Positions 1-11,982 of a stretch of DNA of 32,837 nucleotides are shown in pieces (positions within the stretch are counted from its first letter, which is position 1; every line of letters starts with the position of its first letter). A program made the position numbers and the translations under genes. Location of the stretch: assembly GCA_947258705.1 (NCBI GenBank), contig CAMYJA010000019.1, positions 1-32,837 on the forward strand, written 5' to 3'. This stretch comes from an uncultured Hyphomicrobiaceae bacterium. Lineage in GTDB: Bacteria; Pseudomonadota; Alphaproteobacteria; Rhizobiales; CAMYJA01. The notes below the pieces were generated by a model, which saw only the letters and a list, made by a program, of their open reading frames with translations, was not told the origin of the DNA and searched no databases.

Positions 1-3000
1 TGGAAGGCACGGTGGATGCGGGCGAGGGCGGCAACACCCTGACCAACACGACGACGGCGGCGTCCGGCGATCAGACCGATCCGACGGCGGTGGGCGACGA
101 TCTCACGGAAAGCGTGACCGTGGACAACAATCCGGCGCTGACCCTGGTCAAGTCGACCACGGCTGCGGATTACAATGCCGTCGGTGACATACTGAATTAC
201 AGCTATCTCGTCACCAATACCGGTAATGTCGCTATTGCCAGTCTGGTGGTGAGTGATGATAAAATTCCAACGGTCAACTGCGATGTGACGGCCGTGGGTA
301 ATGGTGACGCCGTGCTCGATCCGGCGGAGGCGGTGTCCTGCACCGGTGCCTATACGGTCACCCAGGCCGATCTCGATGCGGGTTCGGTAACCAACAATGC
401 GAGTGCCGATGGTACACCTTCGAGTGGCGTTTTGACACCTCCGACCGATAGCGTCACGGTCAATGCCATCCAGAATCCGAGCCTTGCCACAACCAAAACC
501 CTGAACGGCGGCACCGCTGCCGATAACGGCGATGGTACCTTTACCGCGAGTTTCCAGTCGGTTGTGCAAAACAACGGGAACGTCACACTGTCAAACGTCA
601 ATGTGGCGGACGATTATGATGCGCAACTGCCTTCAGGAGCAAGCGTCACGGCCGCGGCGACGATTTCCGCCGTGTCCTCGACCCGCGGCGCGCTTGCAAG
701 CGCCAATGCCGGTTATACAGCTACGTCTGCCTCACCGAACCTGATCGCAGGCGCAGGAGAGAGTCTCGCCGTGGGTGAGACGATCACAATCGTCTACACA
801 ATTACATTCGATCCCGGCACCAATGCGTCCGGCCCCGCCTTCGACAATGTCGCGACGTCGAACGGTACCAATGCCGGCGGTCCGGATCCGGCCCCCACTC
901 CCTCGCCACCCATATCGGTGCCGTTTGCAGCAACGCCCGTAGTAAACACGGTCAAGGCGACGTCTGGAAATCTCACTCCGCTTGGCGGCGGTGCATATCG
1001 CACGACCTATATGATATCGGTGAAGTCCATCGGTAACGTGCCCATCGAAGTGACGTCTGTGGTGGATGATCTGGTGCAGACTTTCGAGCAGGGCGCCGCG
1101 CAAGTGACATCGGTCTCGGTACCCGTGATAACCTCCGCGCCGGCTGGCTTCCTCGGCGCTGCGAATCCTAGTTTCGATGGCGGAGCTCTTGCCACCAACG
1201 ACACCAACCTCATCGGAACTCCCGGTATCCTGCGCCCTGGCGAAGTTCTGACAATTCAGATCACAGTGGATTTCGTGCTAAACAATGATCCCGGGCCGTT
1301 CTCGAATACTGCGATTGCGACAGCAAACTCGGGCGGCAGCACCGTCACCGACAGCTCCGAGGACTCGCTAAATCCCGACGACACCGGGGCGTCGCCTACC
1401 ATCATTTCGATCGATCCCTCGGGCGTCGTCTATGACGCACAGACGGGCCTTCCCGTCACCGGCGCCGTCGTGCAAATGACCGATGCATCGGGAACGCCGC
1501 TGCCGGCGGCCTGCCTCGCGCCCGGGCAGCAGCCCCAAACCACCGGCGCGACAGGCGCCTATCGTTTTGACATACAACCTGGTGCTGCGCCGCAATGTCC
1601 GGTCGTCGAGACAACCTATCTCCTCAGCGTCACGCCGCCGCCGGGCTACGGTTTCCAGTCCGTTGTGATCCCGACCCAGCCGGGCGCCTATGACGCGACG
1701 GGATGTCCTTTGCCTGCAGTACTTAGCGGCGGTTTTTGTGAAATCGTGCCCTCGCCGACGGCCCCTGCGGGCGGTGCGGGTGGCGGTGGAAACCTCACCT
1801 ATTTTTTGAGTTTCTCCCTGGCGCCGGGCGATCCCGATGTCACGAACAATCATATACCACTCGATACGGCCGTCCCTGCCGGTGCGTTAACTGTCTCAAA
1901 ACGCGTATCGCAACGCACGGCTTCCGTTGGCGATCTCATCGATTACGCGATAACGGTGAGAAACGACACCGCGGTGCCCGCATTCAATATCAATGTGGTC
2001 GACAATATTCCACCAGGCTTTTCCTATGCAAAAAATTCCGCACGCATCGTCATTTCGGTTCCGGGACCATCGGTATTGGCCGTGGAGCCGATTCAGCAGG
2101 GCCGCCGCCTGACGTGGAACGTTAGCGCCGCCAATCCCACCCCATTCGATCTCGTACCCGCCGGTGGCGAATTAACGATCAGGCTGAAACTGATCGTTGG
2201 AGCGGGGCTCTCATTTGGCGATCACGTCAACCTGGCCCATGTGGAAGACCTGGCAGGTACCATCATCTCCAATGTCGCGCGCGCAACTGTTACCATCGTT
2301 CCAGATCCCGTATTGGATTGTTCTGAACTGATCGGCAAAGTCTGGGACGACCAAAACAGAAACGGTCGACAGGATCCCGGCGAGAAAGGTCTGCCCGGCG
2401 TCAAGCTTGCAACAGTAAATGGCTTCGTCATCACAACCGATCAGCATGGCCGTTATCATTTCCCCTGTGCGGTCGTTGCCGATTTCCAGAAGGGTACGAA
2501 TTTTATTCTTAAAGTGGACCCGGGCACGCTGCCGTCCGGTTATCAGATGACGACAGAAAATCCCCGCGTCATCCGCATGCGCAGGGGCCGGATGGGCAAA
2601 ATCAATTTCGGTGCAACCCTGCCGCCGCTGATCGAGGTCAACTTTGCCCAAAATGGACTTGAAAATCCGGCCAGGGTCTTGAACAACCTCAAGCGCGCGC
2701 TAACGATCGTCAACAAGCGCGGAGAATATGGAACTGTTGCCCTGCGCTTTACCTATCACGGTGGCGCAATCACCGGGGCGCGCATAGCCAACCGGCTTCA
2801 TCACATCGCAAATCTTGCCAGGGAGCGTTGGAGTTCCATGGCGGGTCAATTGCGCCTTGGAGAAGTCAGCCTTGAGGCGGTAACAGACAGAACTATGCCG
2901 GCCGGAGGATTGTCCGTCTCCATGGATGGCGATTATCTGGCAGGCTCCCCCGGAAGCACCGGCAGCTCGCCTCTTCGCCCTGACGTGCATGTGAAATTCT

Positions 3001-6000
3001 CCGGCAGGCCGGAGGATCGGGCATTGAACGTCACTGCCGAGCTTGCACAGGGCATAGGCATCCCGGCCCTTCGTTTCAAAGGATACTGGAATTACGGCTC
3101 ATGGATCAGACGTGCCGAAATTAGATTGTTTGGACCGGATGCAGGGGTGCTGACCCGGCCGTTCGCAATCATCCCCCTCGACAGTGGACGGCAAGCGCAA
3201 GCAGAGCTGTCAGCGGCCAATGGGAAAACGATCAAATATGTTCTCCGCGTCTATGACGCTCAGGACCGTTTTGACGAAACACGACCCAAGGAAATCAACA
3301 TCCGTCACCAAGCTGTCGGGCCGGACGGAGACGGAGACGGAGACGGGAACGGAGCAGGAGCAGGTAATGCGGGCATGGAGGGCTATGGCCGCAACACAAT
3401 TCGCATCGCCAACATACCTCTCGGTACAGGCACGATCACTGTTTCAGGTTCGGAACTACAGCCCCATGCCAGGATAACGGCGTTGGGTCAGACCGTACCC
3501 GCCGATCGCACAGGAAAATTCGTTGTCGAGCGGCTCGTCCATGACGGCGGCCACGATGTCGATATAATCGTCAGGTCGGGTGGACAGCCTGTCTATCGGG
3601 TCATCAAGCAGGGCGTAATTTCACCAAATGATTTCTTCTTCGTCGCTATTGGCGATCTTACGATCGGCCGTGACAAGCTGAAATCGGGAGGAACCCGAAC
3701 GACGAATGATTACACCGATGGACGCGCCGCCTTTTATTTCAAGGGTAAGGTCAAGGGCGATGTGCTTATTACGGCAATGGCGGATGCCCGCGACGGCGAT
3801 GTTCGTGAAATATTCGGGCGCATAAACAGCCGCGATCCGCGTAAATTCCTGCGCCGTCTCGACCCGGATCTATACTATCCCGTCTATGGCGACGATAGCA
3901 AAATTCACGAAGATGCTCCGACCTCTGGCCGCCTGTATCTAAGGATCGAGCAGGACGAATCATATGGCGTCTGGGGCAATTTCCGCACCGACTTCAATGA
4001 CACGGAATATGGACGTTCGGAGCGGGCTCTTTATGGCGCCAAAGTCAGGCTTCGGCCCTTCGGTCAAACGAGTTACGGCGAGCCGACGACCGAAATAAAG
4101 GCATTCGCAGCCAATCCGGACACGATGAGCGAACGCGACGAATTACGCGGCACCGGCGGATCGGTCTACCATCTGAGACGATCAGATCTGCTTCCTGGAA
4201 GCGAGAAACTTCGGGTGGAAGTCCGCGATCAGAATTCGGGCATTGTCATATCGTCCAGGCAGCTGATCCCGGGCGAGGATTATGATATCGACTATCTGCA
4301 AGGCAGAATCGTTCTCTCAAAACCCCTCGCCTCCACCGCGTCGGATGACAGCATCTTTTCGCAAGGAACCCTCAGCGGTGACAGGGTCTACCTCATTGCC
4401 GAATATGAATTCGCTGCCGACGCCGCTGAAACAACCGACATGATCTATGGCGCCAGAATGTCGCAATGGATCAACGACCATTTCAAAATCGGCGGAACGA
4501 TCCTGCAGGAAAATTCATCGTCAACCGGCGCCATGCCGTTTGAACTTCGTGGGCTCGATGTGACCCTGCGCTATCGACCCGGGACCTATATCAAGCTTGA
4601 ATGGGCCGAAACCGAAGGTTTGATGCAATCGGCATTCACATCAAGCGATGGCGGCTATTCATTTGATCAAAAACAGGTCGCGGGATCCGTGCGCAAGGCG
4701 ACCGGTTGGGCTGCGGAACTGGCCATCGACCTGTCCGATATAACAGAACAAGCCATCGACGGCTCGGTCGTCGCCTATTTCCGCGATCGGGATGCTGGTT
4801 TTGCCGCTCTTGGTTACGAGACAATTACTGCCACGACGCAATATGGCGCAAAAGCCGATGTAAAAATCAGTGACCAGACAAGTCTGCAGGCGAGTTTCGA
4901 TGCCAGCGAGGACGCGGCCGGCCAGGAGCGGAAACGCGCAGAACTGACGCTCTCCCACCATTGGGATTCAAATTGGGAAACAAAGGTGGGGATTGCCCAT
5001 GAAGAAACGACAATTCGCGGCGATCGTACCGATGCGGCAGCAAAGCTGATCTATCATTTCGATGAGGACATGAACGTCTATATCATCGGCCAGACCACCC
5101 TCGATACGAGCAATAACCGCGGTCGCGCCCGGCGTGGTGGAGCGGGCGCCGAAATTCCACTGAGTGAAAAAATAACTTTAAACGGTGAAGTAACCGCCGG
5201 AGATGGCGGATTGGGAGCGCTTGCCGGTATTCGTTATCATTATGACGAGAAGAACGAGCTATACATCGCCTATGAGCTGCCGGACCGTACGAATACCGGC
5301 ACCGCGGTTGGAAACCTCATCATCGGCGCGCGCAAGCGCTATAGCGATACGCTGTCAGTGTTTGGCGAAGATCGTGTTCTTCACACCAATAGCGGTGTCA
5401 CCGGCCTGACCCATGCTTACGGCATCGAGTATACGCCCACCACCAACTGGAACTTCAACATGTTGACCGAAGTGGGCGATGTCGACAATCTCGACCGTGT
5501 CGCCGTATCGGGCACGGCGGGATACAAGACCGAGAACACGAAAATCGGCGCGACCCTCGAATACCGAACGGACAAGGCGGACCAGATCTCCACCAGAGAC
5601 ACCTATGCGGGGCGTCTGTCGATGTTGCACAATCCCTATGAAAGTCTGCGCATACAGGCGAAGTTGAACGCAGCGCTGAGCGAATCCGATCAAAACGCGA
5701 ATGGTGCATTCGACGCCCGCTTTTTCGAGGGTTCAATCGGCCTGGCTTATCGTCCCGTCTGGAATGACAAGCTCAATATCCTCGCGAAATATGCGTTTCT
5801 CTATGATCTGCCTCCGGCGGAGCAGGTCAACGGTTCGACGCTCGGCCTCGCCGACTATCGCCAGCGCAGTCATATCCTGTCCCTGGATGCCATTCTCGAT
5901 GTCAATCACTGGTTGAGCATCGGCGCCAAATATGGCTGGAAACATGGCGAGCAGACAGGCTCCCGCACGACCAGTGACTGGTACAGTTCAAGCGCGCATC

Positions 6001-6242
6001 TGGCGTCAATCGGCGCCGACATCCATCTGCCGTTTGAATGGGATATCTATCTCGAAGGACGTATTCTGCACCTTCCCGAAGCCGATGAGACGACAAAAGG
6101 CTTTACCGCCGGCCTGTATCGCCATGTTGGTGAAAACGTCAAAATAGGTGGTGGTTATCACTTTGGCGAAGCCTCGGACAATCTGGCCAATCCCGAACGC
6201 GATCAGCAAGGCTGGTTTATAAACTTTATCAGCAAGTTCTAA
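1..6242 (+). CDS. Giant DUF11/SdrD-B repeat surface protein with C-terminal outer-membrane barrel (5' partial)
   Basis: The frame is open to the left edge, so the start and signal peptide lie outside; about 2,079 codons are visible. Numbering residues from base 12, residues about 40-460 are DUF11-like Ig-fold repeats (recurring VTNTGNV-type cores). About 467-620 and 774-865 look like SdrD-B/carboxypeptidase-regulatory modules (WDDQNRNGRQDPGEKGLPGV is characteristic), with another DUF11-like unit at about 623-770. An Asp-Gly run at about 1105-1118 precedes a long region (about 1207 to the end) rich in alternating aromatic/polar strands and ending in FISKF. A terminal Phe is typical of Bam-inserted barrels. 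I infer a cell-surface stalk anchored by its own barrel, perhaps an adhesin or secretion/assembly platform. The substrate is unknown. A weak hairpin follows at 6248-6272. Confidence 0.8.
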   Translation, partial: EGTVDAGEGGNTLTNTTTAASGDQTDPTAVGDDLTESVTVDNNPALTLVKSTTAADYNAVGDILNYSYLVTNTGNVAIASLVVSDDKIPTVNCDVTAVGNGDAVLDPAEAVSCTGAYTVTQADLDAGSVTNNASADGTPSSGVLTPPTDSVTVNAIQNPSLATTKTLNGGTAADNGDGTFTASFQSVVQNNGNVTLSNVNVADDYDAQLPSGASVTAAATISAVSSTRGALASANAGYTATSASPNLIAGAGESLAVGETITIVYTITFDPGTNASGPAFDNVATSNGTNAGGPDPAPTPSPPISVPFAATPVVNTVKATSGNLTPLGGGAYRTTYMISVKSIGNVPIEVTSVVDDLVQTFEQGAAQVTSVSVPVITSAPAGFLGAANPSFDGGALATNDTNLIGTPGILRPGEVLTIQITVDFVLNNDPGPFSNTAIATANSGGSTVTDSSEDSLNPDDTGASPTIISIDPSGVVYDAQTGLPVTGAVVQMTDASGTPLPAACLAPGQQPQTTGATGAYRFDIQPGAAPQCPVVETTYLLSVTPPPGYGFQSVVIPTQPGAYDATGCPLPAVLSGGFCEIVPSPTAPAGGAGGGGNLTYFLSFSLAPGDPDVTNNHIPLDTAVPAGALTVSKRVSQRTASVGDLIDYAITVRNDTAVPAFNINVVDNIPPGFSYAKNSARIVISVPGPSVLAVEPIQQGRRLTWNVSAANPTPFDLVPAGGELTIRLKLIVGAGLSFGDHVNLAHVEDLAGTIISNVARATVTIVPDPVLDCSELIGKVWDDQNRNGRQDPGEKGLPGVKLATVNGFVITTDQHGRYHFPCAVVADFQKGTNFILKVDPGTLPSGYQMTTENPRVIRMRRGRMGKINFGATLPPLIEVNFAQNGLENPARVLNNLKRALTIVNKRGEYGTVALRFTYHGGAITGARIANRLHHIANLARERWSSMAGQLRLGEVSLEAVTDRTMPAGGLSVSMDGDYLAGSPGSTGSSPLRPDVHVKFSGRPEDRALNVTAELAQGIGIPALRFKGYWNYGSWIRRAEIRLFGPDAGVLTRPFAIIPLDSGRQAQAELSAANGKTIKYVLRVYDAQDRFDETRPKEINIRHQAVGPDGDGDGDGNGAGAGNAGMEGYGRNTIRIANIPLGTGTITVSGSELQPHARITALGQTVPADRTGKFVVERLVHDGGHDVDIIVRSGGQPVYRVIKQGVISPNDFFFVAIGDLTIGRDKLKSGGTRTTNDYTDGRAAFYFKGKVKGDVLITAMADARDGDVREIFGRINSRDPRKFLRRLDPDLYYPVYGDDSKIHEDAPTSGRLYLRIEQDESYGVWGNFRTDFNDTEYGRSERALYGAKVRLRPFGQTSYGEPTTEIKAFAANPDTMSERDELRGTGGSVYHLRRSDLLPGSEKLRVEVRDQNSGIVISSRQLIPGEDYDIDYLQGRIVLSKPLASTASDDSIFSQGTLSGDRVYLIAEYEFAADAAETTDMIYGARMSQWINDHFKIGGTILQENSSSTGAMPFELRGLDVTLRYRPGTYIKLEWAETEGLMQSAFTSSDGGYSFDQKQVAGSVRKATGWAAELAIDLSDITEQAIDGSVVAYFRDRDAGFAALGYETITATTQYGAKADVKISDQTSLQASFDASEDAAGQERKRAELTLSHHWDSNWETKVGIAHEETTIRGDRTDAAAKLIYHFDEDMNVYIIGQTTLDTSNNRGRARRGGAGAEIPLSEKITLNGEVTAGDGGLGALAGIRYHYDEKNELYIAYELPDRTNTGTAVGNLIIGARKRYSDTLSVFGEDRVLHTNSGVTGLTHAYGIEYTPTTNWNFNMLTEVGDVDNLDRVAVSGTAGYKTENTKIGATLEYRTDKADQISTRDTYAGRLSMLHNPYESLRIQAKLNAALSESDQNANGAFDARFFEGSIGLAYRPVWNDKLNILAKYAFLYDLPPAEQVNGSTLGLADYRQRSHILSLDAILDVNHWLSIGAKYGWKHGEQTGSRTTSDWYSSSAHLASIGADIHLPFEWDIYLEGRILHLPEADETTKGFTAGLYRHVGENVKIGGGYHFGEASDNLANPERDQQGWFINFISKF
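3324..3365 (+). repeat. In-frame hexanucleotide (GACGGA) microsatellite coding Asp-Gly
   Basis: Three perfect GACGGA units (3324-3341) are followed by degenerate GACGGG, AACGGA, GCAGGA and GCAGGT units. The repeat is in frame with the giant surface protein and encodes alternating Asp/Asn/Ala and Gly. Because the unit is six bases, slippage would change hinge length without a frameshift. Its position between the stalk and the barrel suggests a flexible or calcium-binding linker (inference). Confidence 0.85.
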
Positions 6243-6323: not shown

Positions 6324-6485
6324 ATGAAATCACAATCCATGGCCAAGCACGAAAATATTGCGGCCCGACCGGTTCCGGATCGGCTGTTTTCGGTCGCCCC
6401 CATGATGGAATGGACGGGAACGCTGAAGAACACGTTTTCTTTCAGAGCGCTACACGGCGCCCCCCCAGGGTATGAGCCATACTAA
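6324..6485 (+). pseudogene. Relic 5' end of dusA, disconnected from the gene
   Basis: An ATG at 6324, four bases after an AGGGG ribosome-binding site, opens a 53-codon frame. Its residues about 21-32 (DRLFSVAPMMEWT region) are the conserved N-terminus of tRNA-dihydrouridine synthase A. After the tryptophan-threonine the sequence leaves the family (GTLKNTF...) and stops at 6483. The conserved continuation (DRHCRYFHRLL) is found instead in the working dusA, 530 bp downstream. I read this as the original dusA start, left behind when something inserted into the 5' end of the gene. It keeps its own ribosome-binding site, so a 53-aa peptide may still be made. Confidence 0.8.
6396..6417 (+). repeat. 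Left copy of 22-bp direct repeat (att-like, in dusA relic)
   Basis: These 22 bases, beginning GCCCCCATGATGGAATGG, are identical to 6926-6947. Flanking bases differ on both sides (C versus T just upstream, G versus A just downstream), so the match is confined to a short core, as expected for a site-specific recombination junction. Both copies are read in the dusA frame. Confidence 0.85.
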
Positions 6486-6493
6486 AGTCATAC
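6470..6493. promoter_or_regulatory. Inverted repeat upstream of islet gene
   Basis: GTATGA (6470-6475) and TCATAC (6488-6493) form a perfect 6-bp inverted repeat with a 12-bp spacer. A nested GTATG-AGC-CATAC (6470-6482) shares the left arm. It lies 27 bp before the start codon of the 107-aa gene, where an operator or promoter element would sit. No matching regulator is encoded in the islet. Confidence 0.3.
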
Positions 6494-6520
6494 AAAAACA
6501 ACTGAACAGGAGAGGTCGTA

Positions 6521-6844
6521 ATGAACGCAAAGGATCATGAGACCGCTGCACGTGCGAAGCTTTTGGCGATGATGGGAACACCTGAGGGCGAGTGGGGTCC
6601 GACGGTATTTGTTTCCCATCACTTGGAAGAGCTGGAATCTGATTACTGGGAGAGATACTACGGGAGTTCCAAGCCAGAAGCAGAGGAAATTCTGGGCTCT
6701 TTGGTGTTAGTTAACACTTGGAGTTCCAATGATGACGAAAATATTGATACCTTTGATTTTAGCCTCCCCGGCAATGTTACAAACTACCTGTTATCTGTCC
6801 GTTTCAAAGGCGACGAGATCGTAGATGTTTCGATGGAGAGCTAA
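6521..6844 (+). CDS. Small acidic protein of unknown function, islet cargo
   Basis: This is a 107-aa soluble protein with no signal peptide or membrane segment. The start is supported by AGGAGAGG eight to nine bases upstream. It is strongly acidic, with an N-terminal helical segment (residues 1-20), a central E/D/W/Y-rich stretch (about 34-53) and a C-terminal beta-rich end closing in VRFKGDEIVDVSMES. I do not recognise the family with confidence. The size, acidity and compact ending recall small cytoplasmic immunity-type or DUF proteins, but that is only a resemblance. It is the sole gene inside the dusA islet and is more AT-rich than its neighbours, so recent acquisition is likely. Confidence 0.7.
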   Translation: MNAKDHETAARAKLLAMMGTPEGEWGPTVFVSHHLEELESDYWERYYGSSKPEAEEILGSLVLVNTWSSNDDENIDTFDFSLPGNVTNYLLSVRFKGDEIVDVSMES

Positions 6845-6892
6845 ATCAATTCAGAGTTTTCAGCGGTGTTTCTTACAGTGAAGGACCGGCAA

Positions 6893-7903
6893 ATGGAAAT
6901 CTCAGAACACGCACGCCTAAGCGTTGCCCCCATGATGGAATGGACGGATCGTCATTGCCGCTATTTCCACCGCCTGCTGACGCGAAGAACGCTTCTTTAC
7001 ACCGAAATGATCACCGCTCAGGCCCTCATTCATGGACCACGCCAACGGCTGTTGGCGTTCGATCCGTTTGAGCATCCCGTGGCCCTTCAAATCGGCGGAT
7101 CCGAACCATCCGAGCTGGCCAAGGCAACGCGCTTCGGTCATGAGGCCGGATATGATGAAGTCAATCTCAATGTCGGCTGCCCGTCCGACCGCGTTCAATC
7201 AGGCAGGTTCGGTGCCTGCCTGATGGCGGAGCCGGATCTTGTCGGCGACTGCCTGGCTGCGATGAAAGACGCCACCGATCGGCCCGTAACCGTCAAATGC
7301 CGCATCGGCATCGATGAGCAGGACGGTGAAAGTGATCTCGACCGTTTTGTCGAAACGATCGCCATACGCGGTATCACGACCTTCATCATTCACGCCCGCA
7401 AAGCATGGCTGCGAGGTCTCAGCCCCAAGGAAAACCGAGACGTCCCCCCGCTCCGACATGAGCGCGTTTATCGGCTGAAAGAGAAATATCCCGGGCTTGA
7501 AATCATTCTGAATGGCGGCGTCGAGACATTGCATGATGCGCGCGCTCATCTGGACCATGTGGATGGCGTCATGATGGGGCGCGCGGCTTACCACAATCCA
7601 TGGCAGCTTGCCGCAGCCGATGGGGTAATATTTGATGCGGCAGGGCCTGCGCGGACACGCGATGACATTATGCGCGATTTCACCGAATATGTACGTGGTG
7701 AACTCGACCGGGGTGCGCGCCTGCATCAAATGACAAAACATATTTTGGGATTTTATCATGGCCAACCGGGAGCGCGTGCCTTCAGGCGCCATCTGAGCCA
7801 GTATGCACCACGCGATGGAGCGGATATTACCGTTCTGAACGATGCGCTTGCCCATGTGCGGCAATCTGATGATTGTTCACTGAGCTCAACGGCAGTCTGT
7901 TAG
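6893..7903 (+). CDS. dusA: tRNA-dihydrouridine synthase A
   Basis: The enzyme reduces uridine to 5,6-dihydrouridine in the tRNA D-loop, using FMN and NADPH. The 336-aa protein shows SVAPMMEWTDRHCRYF near the N-terminus, the catalytic cysteine in NLNVGCPSDR (Cys96), the FMN-barrel strand VTVKCRIGID and the DusA ending region GQPGARAFRRHL. ATG 6893 is chosen because AAGGA lies seven bases upstream and the family N-terminus begins close by; a longer GTG-started frame from 6866 adds unrelated residues. The first eight or so codons come from the inserted islet rather than the original gene, whose 5' end survives at 6324-6485. The stop overlaps the ribosome-binding region of the next gene, implying co-transcription. 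Confidence 0.93.
   Translation: MEISEHARLSVAPMMEWTDRHCRYFHRLLTRRTLLYTEMITAQALIHGPRQRLLAFDPFEHPVALQIGGSEPSELAKATRFGHEAGYDEVNLNVGCPSDRVQSGRFGACLMAEPDLVGDCLAAMKDATDRPVTVKCRIGIDEQDGESDLDRFVETIAIRGITTFIIHARKAWLRGLSPKENRDVPPLRHERVYRLKEKYPGLEIILNGGVETLHDARAHLDHVDGVMMGRAAYHNPWQLAAADGVIFDAAGPARTRDDIMRDFTEYVRGELDRGARLHQMTKHILGFYHGQPGARAFRRHLSQYAPRDGADITVLNDALAHVRQSDDCSLSSTAVC
6926..6947 (+). repeat. Right copy of 22-bp direct repeat (att-like, in working dusA)
   Basis: This copy is identical over 22 bases to 6396-6417 and encodes APMMEWT-adjacent codons of DusA. Recombination between the copies would remove exactly 530 bp. It would rejoin the relic start to the gene body in frame, recreating a canonical dusA 5' end. 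Confidence 0.85.
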
Positions 7904-10357: not shown

Positions 10358-10951
10358 TCATTCTGTGAGAACCAGCTCGTCTCCCTTGATCTCGACCCGG
10401 CTGAGCTTGCTCAGAAACGTCATTCCCAAAAGTGTGATATGCAGCCGTCCAGGCTCGCTGACGGATGCGCGAACATCGTCAATCTCGATATCGCCAATAC
10501 GCACCCTGTCAAGAATGACCGGAGCCGACCGGGCATATCCGTTAGCTGTTCGCGATTTGAGCGTGAAATCCTGATCACGGACAAAGAGACCGACTGTTTC
10601 GGCGTCGTCATGGGTCAGTGCAACACCGGTTGCACCGGTATCCACCATGACATCGATCTGCCGGCCGTTGATATAGGCCCGGGCAAAAAAGTGTCCGCCA
10701 TGTTGAGCGGCCAGGTGGACCGTACGTCCACTGCCGCTTTGCAGGTCCTGCCGTCTGCGAGATTGCGAACGCGCACCGACTTCCTGTCGAATTCCGCGGC
10801 CAGCCTGTTGTCCGACCTCACCGGCGGTTTCAAAAGCCTGCCGCGCCAGAGCCTTGAGATCGTCGTAATAAAAAACACTGAAAAAAACTGATGCCATCAG
10901 GGTCAGCCAACTGGCGCCCTCAATCATAAAGCGTTTTGTTCCTGTCGACAT
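10358..10951 (-). CDS. TIGR02281-type retropepsin-like membrane aspartyl protease (second copy)
   Basis: The 197-aa protein has one N-terminal membrane segment (residues about 12-29), a basic, Gln/Arg-rich linker (about 48-75) and a retropepsin-like domain with the catalytic triplet VDTGAT (Asp104). The downstream hydrophobic-Gly signature is LLGMTFLSKL. Single-domain proteases of this type act as dimers. The Caulobacter relative PerP cleaves the polarity factor PodJ in the periplasm. The topology here also places the protease domain in the periplasm. It is paralogous to the gene immediately upstream (DTGA core, spacing and C-terminal LSRVE/LSRLR ending), so the pair probably arose by tandem duplication. 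Confidence 0.85.
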   Translation of the reverse strand: MSTGTKRFMIEGASWLTLMASVFFSVFYYDDLKALARQAFETAGEVGQQAGRGIRQEVGARSQSRRRQDLQSGSGRTVHLAAQHGGHFFARAYINGRQIDVMVDTGATGVALTHDDAETVGLFVRDQDFTLKSRTANGYARSAPVILDRVRIGDIEIDDVRASVSEPGRLHITLLGMTFLSKLSRVEIKGDELVLTE

Positions 10952-11027: not shown

Positions 11028-11735
11028 TCAGCTCCGCAACGTTAAAAAATCTCCTGAGAACTCATAAGACCTCAAACGGCTTAAAAAACTCATACCAAGA
11101 AGACTTTGATGCAATGCACCGGGTTTTGCGATCAACGCTTCGACCCTCCTGAGGCCGATATCGCCGACATTGACGTCGCGTAACTGCACCCGAGCGGCAT
11201 AACTTGTGCCATTCGCAGTCTGCACGGGCACGATATACCGCAATCCGGTAACGCTGAAGCCGATGCGCTGGGCGTCATTTTGTGTTAACACGACGGTGGA
11301 AGCACCGGTATCCACGATCATGCGCAGCGATACGCCGTTAACAATCGTGCGCGCTACAAATTGTCCATCCCCCATGCGGCGGATGCGTACGGCGCGCTGT
11401 CCGGCTTCAAGCCCCTCGACGCTCAACGCAGTGCCTGGTGGCGACAGTTCTCCGGTGACGCGCGAAAGGATAGGAGTGATCTCGTCCCTGAAGCTGTAAC
11501 CGGCGACCAGTACCAACGCCAGCACGGACCAGCTTATGATGTCCTTGGCGGCCTGACCGAGACGGCCCCGATACTCCCCAAGCAGTGGAAATCCAAGGAA
11601 AACAAGCAATGCCAAACCCGAGGCAAGGATCGCGATATCGGAGCTCTCAAGGCCCGATAGCGTTCCCGCATCCCGTGGCAAGACCAGAACAAGACCCGCA
11701 AATATCAACAATCCAAGGGCTAACCAGGCACCCAT
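11028..11735 (-). CDS. TIGR02281-type retropepsin-like membrane aspartyl protease (first copy)
   Basis: The 235-aa protein carries three predicted membrane segments (residues about 2-20, 31-50 and 67-82), then a protease domain with VDTGAS (Asp142) and the LLGMSFLSRL signature. It differs from the next gene by its extra two membrane helices. ATG 11735 is chosen because GGAGGAG sits eight to nine bases upstream and it begins one base after the DUF1289 stop codon, implying translational coupling. A longer frame from 11780 would overlap DUF1289. Family knowledge suggests a periplasmic regulatory protease; the target is unknown. Confidence 0.87.
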   Translation of the reverse strand: MGAWLALGLLIFAGLVLVLPRDAGTLSGLESSDIAILASGLALLVFLGFPLLGEYRGRLGQAAKDIISWSVLALVLVAGYSFRDEITPILSRVTGELSPPGTALSVEGLEAGQRAVRIRRMGDGQFVARTIVNGVSLRMIVDTGASTVVLTQNDAQRIGFSVTGLRYIVPVQTANGTSYAARVQLRDVNVGDIGLRRVEALIAKPGALHQSLLGMSFLSRLRSYEFSGDFLTLRS

Positions 11736-11736
11736 C

Positions 11737-11982
11737 TCAATTCTCCTCCGGCAACCGGACGCGGCGTCTGTCGAGTTCATCCATTATTGCCCGACGTTCT
11801 GCATCGGACATCGAAGCCCATCGGGCGATTTCATCGCTGCTACGACAACAACCGATGCAATATCCCGTTGCATGATTGATTTTGCAGATATCTATGCAGG
11901 GTGTCTCCACCGGGCCGTCCTCTGGTTCAAATGATCCATGCTCACCGAGATGAACGCCATTATTCATTACAGCGCCGAGCAT
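11737..11982 (-). CDS. DUF1289 cysteine-motif protein
   Basis: This is an 81-aa soluble protein. The signature runs TPCIDIC-x9[14 protein letters not shown], with cysteines spaced as in DUF1289 (E. coli YdhL-like) proteins, followed by a basic helical C-terminus. The cysteines probably bind a metal or Fe-S cluster; the function is not established. The start could be ATG 11982 or the in-frame ATG 11967; neither has a clear ribosome-binding site. It is the first gene of a three-gene minus-strand operon with the two aspartyl proteases, with a one-base gap to the next start. Confidence 0.85.

Follow-up and report, generated by a model that had tools for sequence, protein, structure and literature searches.

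The closest described counterparts of the locus studied here are the dusA-associated genomic islands (Farrugia et al. 2015, PMC4482086) and the gene cassettes of integrons. Published dusA islands measure between 4,758 and 184,808 bp, the integrase is the only gene that all of them have in common, and the island supplies the 5' end of dusA, the original end being restored upon excision (PMC4482086). Because the integrase has served as the marker for cataloguing such islands, islets that lack this gene would have escaped notice. In a window of 32,837 nucleotides (the whole stretch of DNA that was analysed) we found an islet of this kind. It resembles the described islands (PMC4482086) in its insertion site at the 5' end of dusA, in its att core and in the way element sequence has taken over the dusA 5' end, whereas it carries no integrase and is only 530 bp long. 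With integron gene cassettes it shares the presence of a single promoter-poor gene in a mobile unit, but it is bounded by dusA att repeats and has no attC.

The dusA insertion site

Two copies of the dusA core, located 530 bp apart, delimit the insert, in which there is one substantial ORF (Table 1). By chance, a repeat pair like this would be expected about 2e-8 times in 700 bp, and exact matches to CCNATGATGGANTGGAC are present at two places only in the 2.77-Mb genome, both being the islet repeats. The core within the left repeat is the target of dusA-associated integrases (PMC4482086). The displaced 5' end of dusA reads on into the islet up to a stop codon at 6483-6485; when fused to position 6948 onward, it yields an uninterrupted DusA of 349 amino acids, and its RLFSVAPMMEWT agrees with the DusA N-terminal consensus from other genomes of the order. 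The re-started dusA has a Shine-Dalgarno sequence that is supplied by the islet (GAAGGA at 6880-6885); dusA islands elsewhere in the order are organised in the same manner, the element contributing the dusA N-terminus. Accordingly, the characters of a dusA island that we observe are the att duplication, with direct repeats of the core at both ends in the dusA 5' end, the displaced native 5' end and the re-supplied N-terminus. No gene for a dusA-type tyrosine integrase, or for any other integrase, is present in the insert, and for this reason we classify it as an integrase-less islet and not as a full dusA island.

Table 1. Features of the islet and of the dusA gene that it interrupts (window coordinates)
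Position	Strand	Feature	Basis or remark
6324..6417	+	Native dusA 5' end, displaced; start ATG 6324, MKSQSMAKHENIAARPVPDRLFSVAPMMEWT	Rejoining test, N-terminal consensus
6393..6417	+	Left attachment-site repeat (attL-like dusA core), GTCGCCCCCATGATGGAATGGACGG	24/25 identical to 6923-6947
6418..6520	+	Left non-coding part of the islet, with inverted hexamers and Shine-Dalgarno sequence AGGAGAGG (6508-6515)	Sequence
6521..6844	+	Single cargo gene for a 107-aa acidic alpha4-beta4 protein (predicted fold) of an undescribed family	
6893..6922	+	New dusA start and N-terminus from the islet; ATG 6893, MEISEHARLS	Sequence
6923..6947	+	Right attachment-site repeat (attR-like dusA core), GTTGCCCCCATGATGGAATGGACGG	24/25 identical to 6393-6417
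6948..7903	+	dusA body, intact	PF01207 E=2.5e-80; NCBIfam DusA equivalog E=1.5e-151

The GC content of the islet is 48% (47% within the ORF), compared to 57% for both the dusA body and the gene upstream. BLAST searches with the islet against all fetched loci gave matches that were limited to the dusA flanks and to a homologous gene of Pseudaestuariivita rosea (L029), so that the ends of the islet have no known source. The inverted hexamers GTATGA (6470-6475) and TCATAC (6488-6493), which are separated by 12 nt and precede the islet gene, could possibly serve as an operator or a recombinase arm site. A 12-mer repeat, ACGAAAATATTG, starting at 6349 and 6735 was judged to be due to chance.

To place the islet among the dusA islands of its order, we surveyed 397 genomes for exact cores, sized the pairs that share a contig, and checked some intervals at most for an integrase. 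Ten other genomes were found to contain, in all, 11 intervals between same-contig core pairs, with lengths from about 12 to 69 kb, and the 530-bp interval of the window is the sole small one among the same-contig pairs of the order. Several of the 11 larger intervals were read, and their left and right ends are as in the window islet. The genome to which the window belongs has one DUF4102-type integrase (the one integrase family searched), which is located on another contig and is approximately 24-31% identical to the integrases that adjoin dusA in relatives.

The islet gene and its family

The ORF begins with ATG, its strong Shine-Dalgarno sequence lies 5 nt ahead of the start, and the product ends in ...IVDVSMES with 21 D/E residues against 7 K/R residues in total. 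The original prediction had described an unrecognised gene, alone in the 530-bp islet, with a strong ribosome-binding site of its own, an AT-richer composition and an acidic product ending in VDVSMES, and the present data bear out all of these points. In particular, the islet protein had no match in Pfam, NCBIfam, PHROGs or PADLOC, and a comparison with PDB sequences returned only chance-level glucosyltransferase rows.

Genome searches, carried out with the protein and then with a profile, traced relatives to 12 GTDB-collection loci; three additional genomes of the phylum proved to carry relatives too. Relatives show 38-62% identity, and the family is distributed over Alpha- and Gammaproteobacteria, Verrucomicrobiota and Planctomycetota. 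Within these searches the family is rare: it was found in 3 of the 397 genomes of the order, where one match is weak, and in 4 of 398 genomes of the phylum, the window's own genome being included in both counts. Two weak rows (E about 0.007-0.009) from 385 genomes of the class were not accepted as relatives.

An alignment of 14 full-length members revealed 15 invariant residues (A10, F30, H33, H34, E37, W43, P52, L61, D79, L82, P83, Y89, M105, E106 and S107) and the signature FVSHHLxE...LPxxxTxYxxxVxF...MES, in which MES forms the C-terminus. All 11 members for which charges were counted are acidic, and a longer relative of 167 aa (L040) has an extra N-terminal part of three strands. Between the window gene and that of P. 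rosea, the differences at the three codon positions amount to 0.33, 0.22 and 0.62. The preponderance of differences at third positions shows this to be a protein-coding gene under purifying selection, and on the strength of these sequence comparisons the ORF at 6521-6844 is a real, conserved gene. In a weakly resolved tree of 14 short rows, the window gene grouped with L029 and L030 (support 95/92), and a verrucomicrobial gene (L032) was placed as the sister of the alphaproteobacterial group that includes the islet gene (87/87). The Woeseiaceae MAG MO_074.B2 has two copies of the family (L031, 4000-4335; L037, 5974-6327), which are located on different contigs and have unrelated neighbours.

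We consider it probable that the islet is a defective, integrase-less dusA islet with one mobile accessory gene, which is probably co-transcribed with dusA. DNA would have entered dusA via site-specific recombination at the attachment core, and the insert would now consist, through reduction or from the start, of a single cargo gene with an att repeat on either side. The islet contains no promoter recognised by a consensus scan for sigma70-type sites, the start region of the native dusA now leads into the islet gene, and only 48 nt separate the end of this gene from the re-supplied dusA start; a single transcript, comprising the leader, the islet gene and dusA and starting from the displaced native dusA promoter, is therefore probable. 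From this transcript, the islet gene would be translated by means of its own strong ribosome-binding site, with the re-started dusA next in line, and the reliance of the islet gene on an outside promoter would be like that of an integron cassette.

The alternative that comes nearest to an even chance in our estimate is that a dusA island of 10-70 kb has lost nearly all of its genes, including the integrase, and that the remaining gene owes its survival to chance or to a recent deletion rather than to selection. This would agree with the sizes of the order's other same-contig intervals, none of which is below 12 kb, with the invariable presence of an integrase in published islands (PMC4482086), and with the location elsewhere of the genome's only DUF4102-type integrase, which is distant in sequence from the dusA-side integrases of relatives. 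However, both att repeats are nearly perfect, and the ORF is intact, has a good Shine-Dalgarno sequence and matches the family from end to end, the invariant C-terminus included, so that the gene itself shows no onset of decay. The view of the original prediction that the gene stayed behind when the rest of the element's genes were lost fits the data, but the islet may also have begun as a single-gene unit, and with one copy at hand both a shrunken island and a minimal unit are compatible with it.

Relatives in integron cassettes and at other loci

At least three relatives (L032, L159 and L161) are genuine integron gene cassettes. Their attC sites were called by eye and with the help of repeat tables; the genomic attC finder was over-strict and recovered only some integron sites, and repeat tables and sequences were used alongside it. 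In the Verrucomicrobia MAG of L032, the gene is located between an attC at 5857-5917 (GGCTAAC...GTTAGGC) and a second element of the form GCCTAAC...GTTAGCC, with an integron integrase at a distance of about 2 kb (TIGR02249 E=4.5e-134). L159 stems from a complete gammaproteobacterial genome in which the family gene is part of a large integron. Here, GCCTAAC...GTTAGGC repeats of 125-147 nt lie on both sides of the gene and recur every 500-650 bp, the copies that bracket the gene being 138 nt long and 83% identical; attC-like sites extend across roughly 100 kb, and IntI is encoded on the same chromosome (TIGR02249 E=1.6e-135). The gene of L161 is flanked by 115-nt repeats of the TATAAC...GTTATGC type, which are two of a nine-copy attC array.

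The remaining relatives are solitary chromosomal genes at varied places, with no mobile element demonstrated for most of them; the P. rosea gene, for example, is positioned antisense between rplW and rplB. According to the original prediction, homologues that are ordinary vertically inherited genes outside mobile contexts would speak against cargo status. This was not what we observed, although most relatives do occupy such solitary positions. No member of the family was found in other dusA islands, or in plasmids, phages or viral contigs of the collections searched. Near the islet gene itself there is no R''/R' pair that would qualify as attC. The islet was therefore rejected as an integron cassette, and no attC remnant that would testify to passage through an integron was found in this copy.

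At L033, at least 10 copies of an imperfect palindrome of 62-84 nt (GACCGCTTCTGGCCGAAAGCAGCC...GGCTGCTACTGACCCAAAGCGG) occur between 1615 and 12216, where they part single ORFs every 400-700 bp, one copy being located just upstream of the family gene. L162, on the same contig, shares this array, and a weaker form is seen at L038. The series resembles a cassette array but is without the canonical attC core, and tblastn detected no IntI on the 58-kb contig of L033 and L162.

With respect to function, small anti-phage systems are frequent in integron cassettes, at least 16 of 179 V. cholerae cassettes being of this kind (summarised in PMC12409362), and the islet family is cassette-borne. The notion that the islet gene is an anti-phage defence or another host-protective cassette nevertheless seems rather doubtful to us, as this is an argument by association only and a PADLOC match is absent. 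With respect to mobility, the rare family of acidic proteins of about 110 aa probably passes between bacteria as a single-gene unit. The islet itself consists of little beyond its att ends, with repeats that are identical at 24/25 positions, and one gene. It could thus be pictured as a non-autonomous unit (att, gene, att) that is moved in trans by a dusA-type integrase, in analogy to the single-gene cassettes in which family members travel. We regard this as unlikely, because a second copy of the islet is absent from all genomes searched and no dusA-type integrase was recognised in the window genome, as far as the one integrase family searched is concerned.

Predicted fold and distant kin

A structure prediction and a profile-profile comparison, both of which had been proposed together with the original prediction, were carried out. 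AlphaFold, run with the family alignment, modelled four helices followed by a four-stranded sheet (pLDDT 91.7, pTM 0.83), and we are confident in this alpha4-beta4 fold as a prediction. When the model was compared with PDB and BFVD by Foldseek, no match reached E<=0.001, and the best VIA-align score was Z 5.9; values below 8 count as noise, and many unrelated folds score equally well; a fold that is absent from the Foldseek or VIA-align lists may still be a true match. In the profile-profile comparison, residues about 60-167 of the Listeria protein WP_014600520.1 (labelled DUF2004) were aligned by hhalign with the whole length of the family at a probability of 95%, with an alignment score of 49 compared to at most 20 in 100 shuffles. 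This supports a distant link between the family and the C-terminal half of the Listeria protein, the N-terminal half of which has no counterpart in the islet family. The Pfam model PF09406 (DUF2004) matched none of 11 family members at E<=10, and it exceeded its curated cut-off in 0 of 101 genomes of the order. Even the Listeria protein matches PF09406 below threshold only, and does so in the half that is not aligned with the family. Since no family member matches the Pfam model, we do not claim membership of DUF2004.

Small size, acidity, an alpha+beta fold and a patchy distribution would also suit an orphan immunity protein of a polymorphic-toxin or T6SS system. The model weakly resembles the colicin M immunity protein (Z 5.2, with 75 aligned residues at an rmsd of 3.3) and Tai3 (Z 4.6), but these scores are in the noise range and level with those of cystatin-like and NTF2-like folds; for the colicin M immunity, Tai3 and UGI-like folds together, Z is at most 5.9. 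Moreover, no toxin gene was seen beside the islet gene or its relatives by ORF inspection and selected Pfam scans of some neighbours, and we consider this explanation quite improbable. It would be more speculative still to assume a minimal dusA cassette in which a protective gene between att sites is mobilised in trans, its family using both integron and dusA recombination and encoding small proteins of a new kind, for defence or immunity, whose fold would be undescribed.

The proposal of the original prediction that the gene is immunity or defence cargo thus gained no support from PADLOC, from any above-noise fold match or from a toxin partner in the loci inspected. We see the gene as mobile cargo of an unnamed family, for which an immunity or defence role is a guess. 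As part of the defective-islet reading that we prefer, the small cytosolic product might bind a partner via its conserved HHL helix, Trp43 and the C-terminal MES, and the gene might confer an occasional advantage, for which protection against phage or a competitor's toxin would be the leading candidate, plausible by analogy and at clearly less than an even chance.

The window islet shows that a single cargo gene can remain, or be carried, at the dusA site, and its family links two routes of mobility, the integron cassette and the dusA site. The family is absent from the libraries tried and from the phage, plasmid and viral collections, and its islet member, being short and expressible, lends itself to screening for phage defence and immunity.

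Two further observations concern the neighbourhood. A repeat-rich, surface-type protein of 2,076 aa is encoded directly upstream of dusA (12-6242, + strand), and two adjacent genes for retropepsin-like aspartyl proteases (gag-asp_proteas, E=9e-24 and 1.5e-25), apparently a tandem pair, are located on the minus strand of the window at 10358-10951 and 11028-11780.
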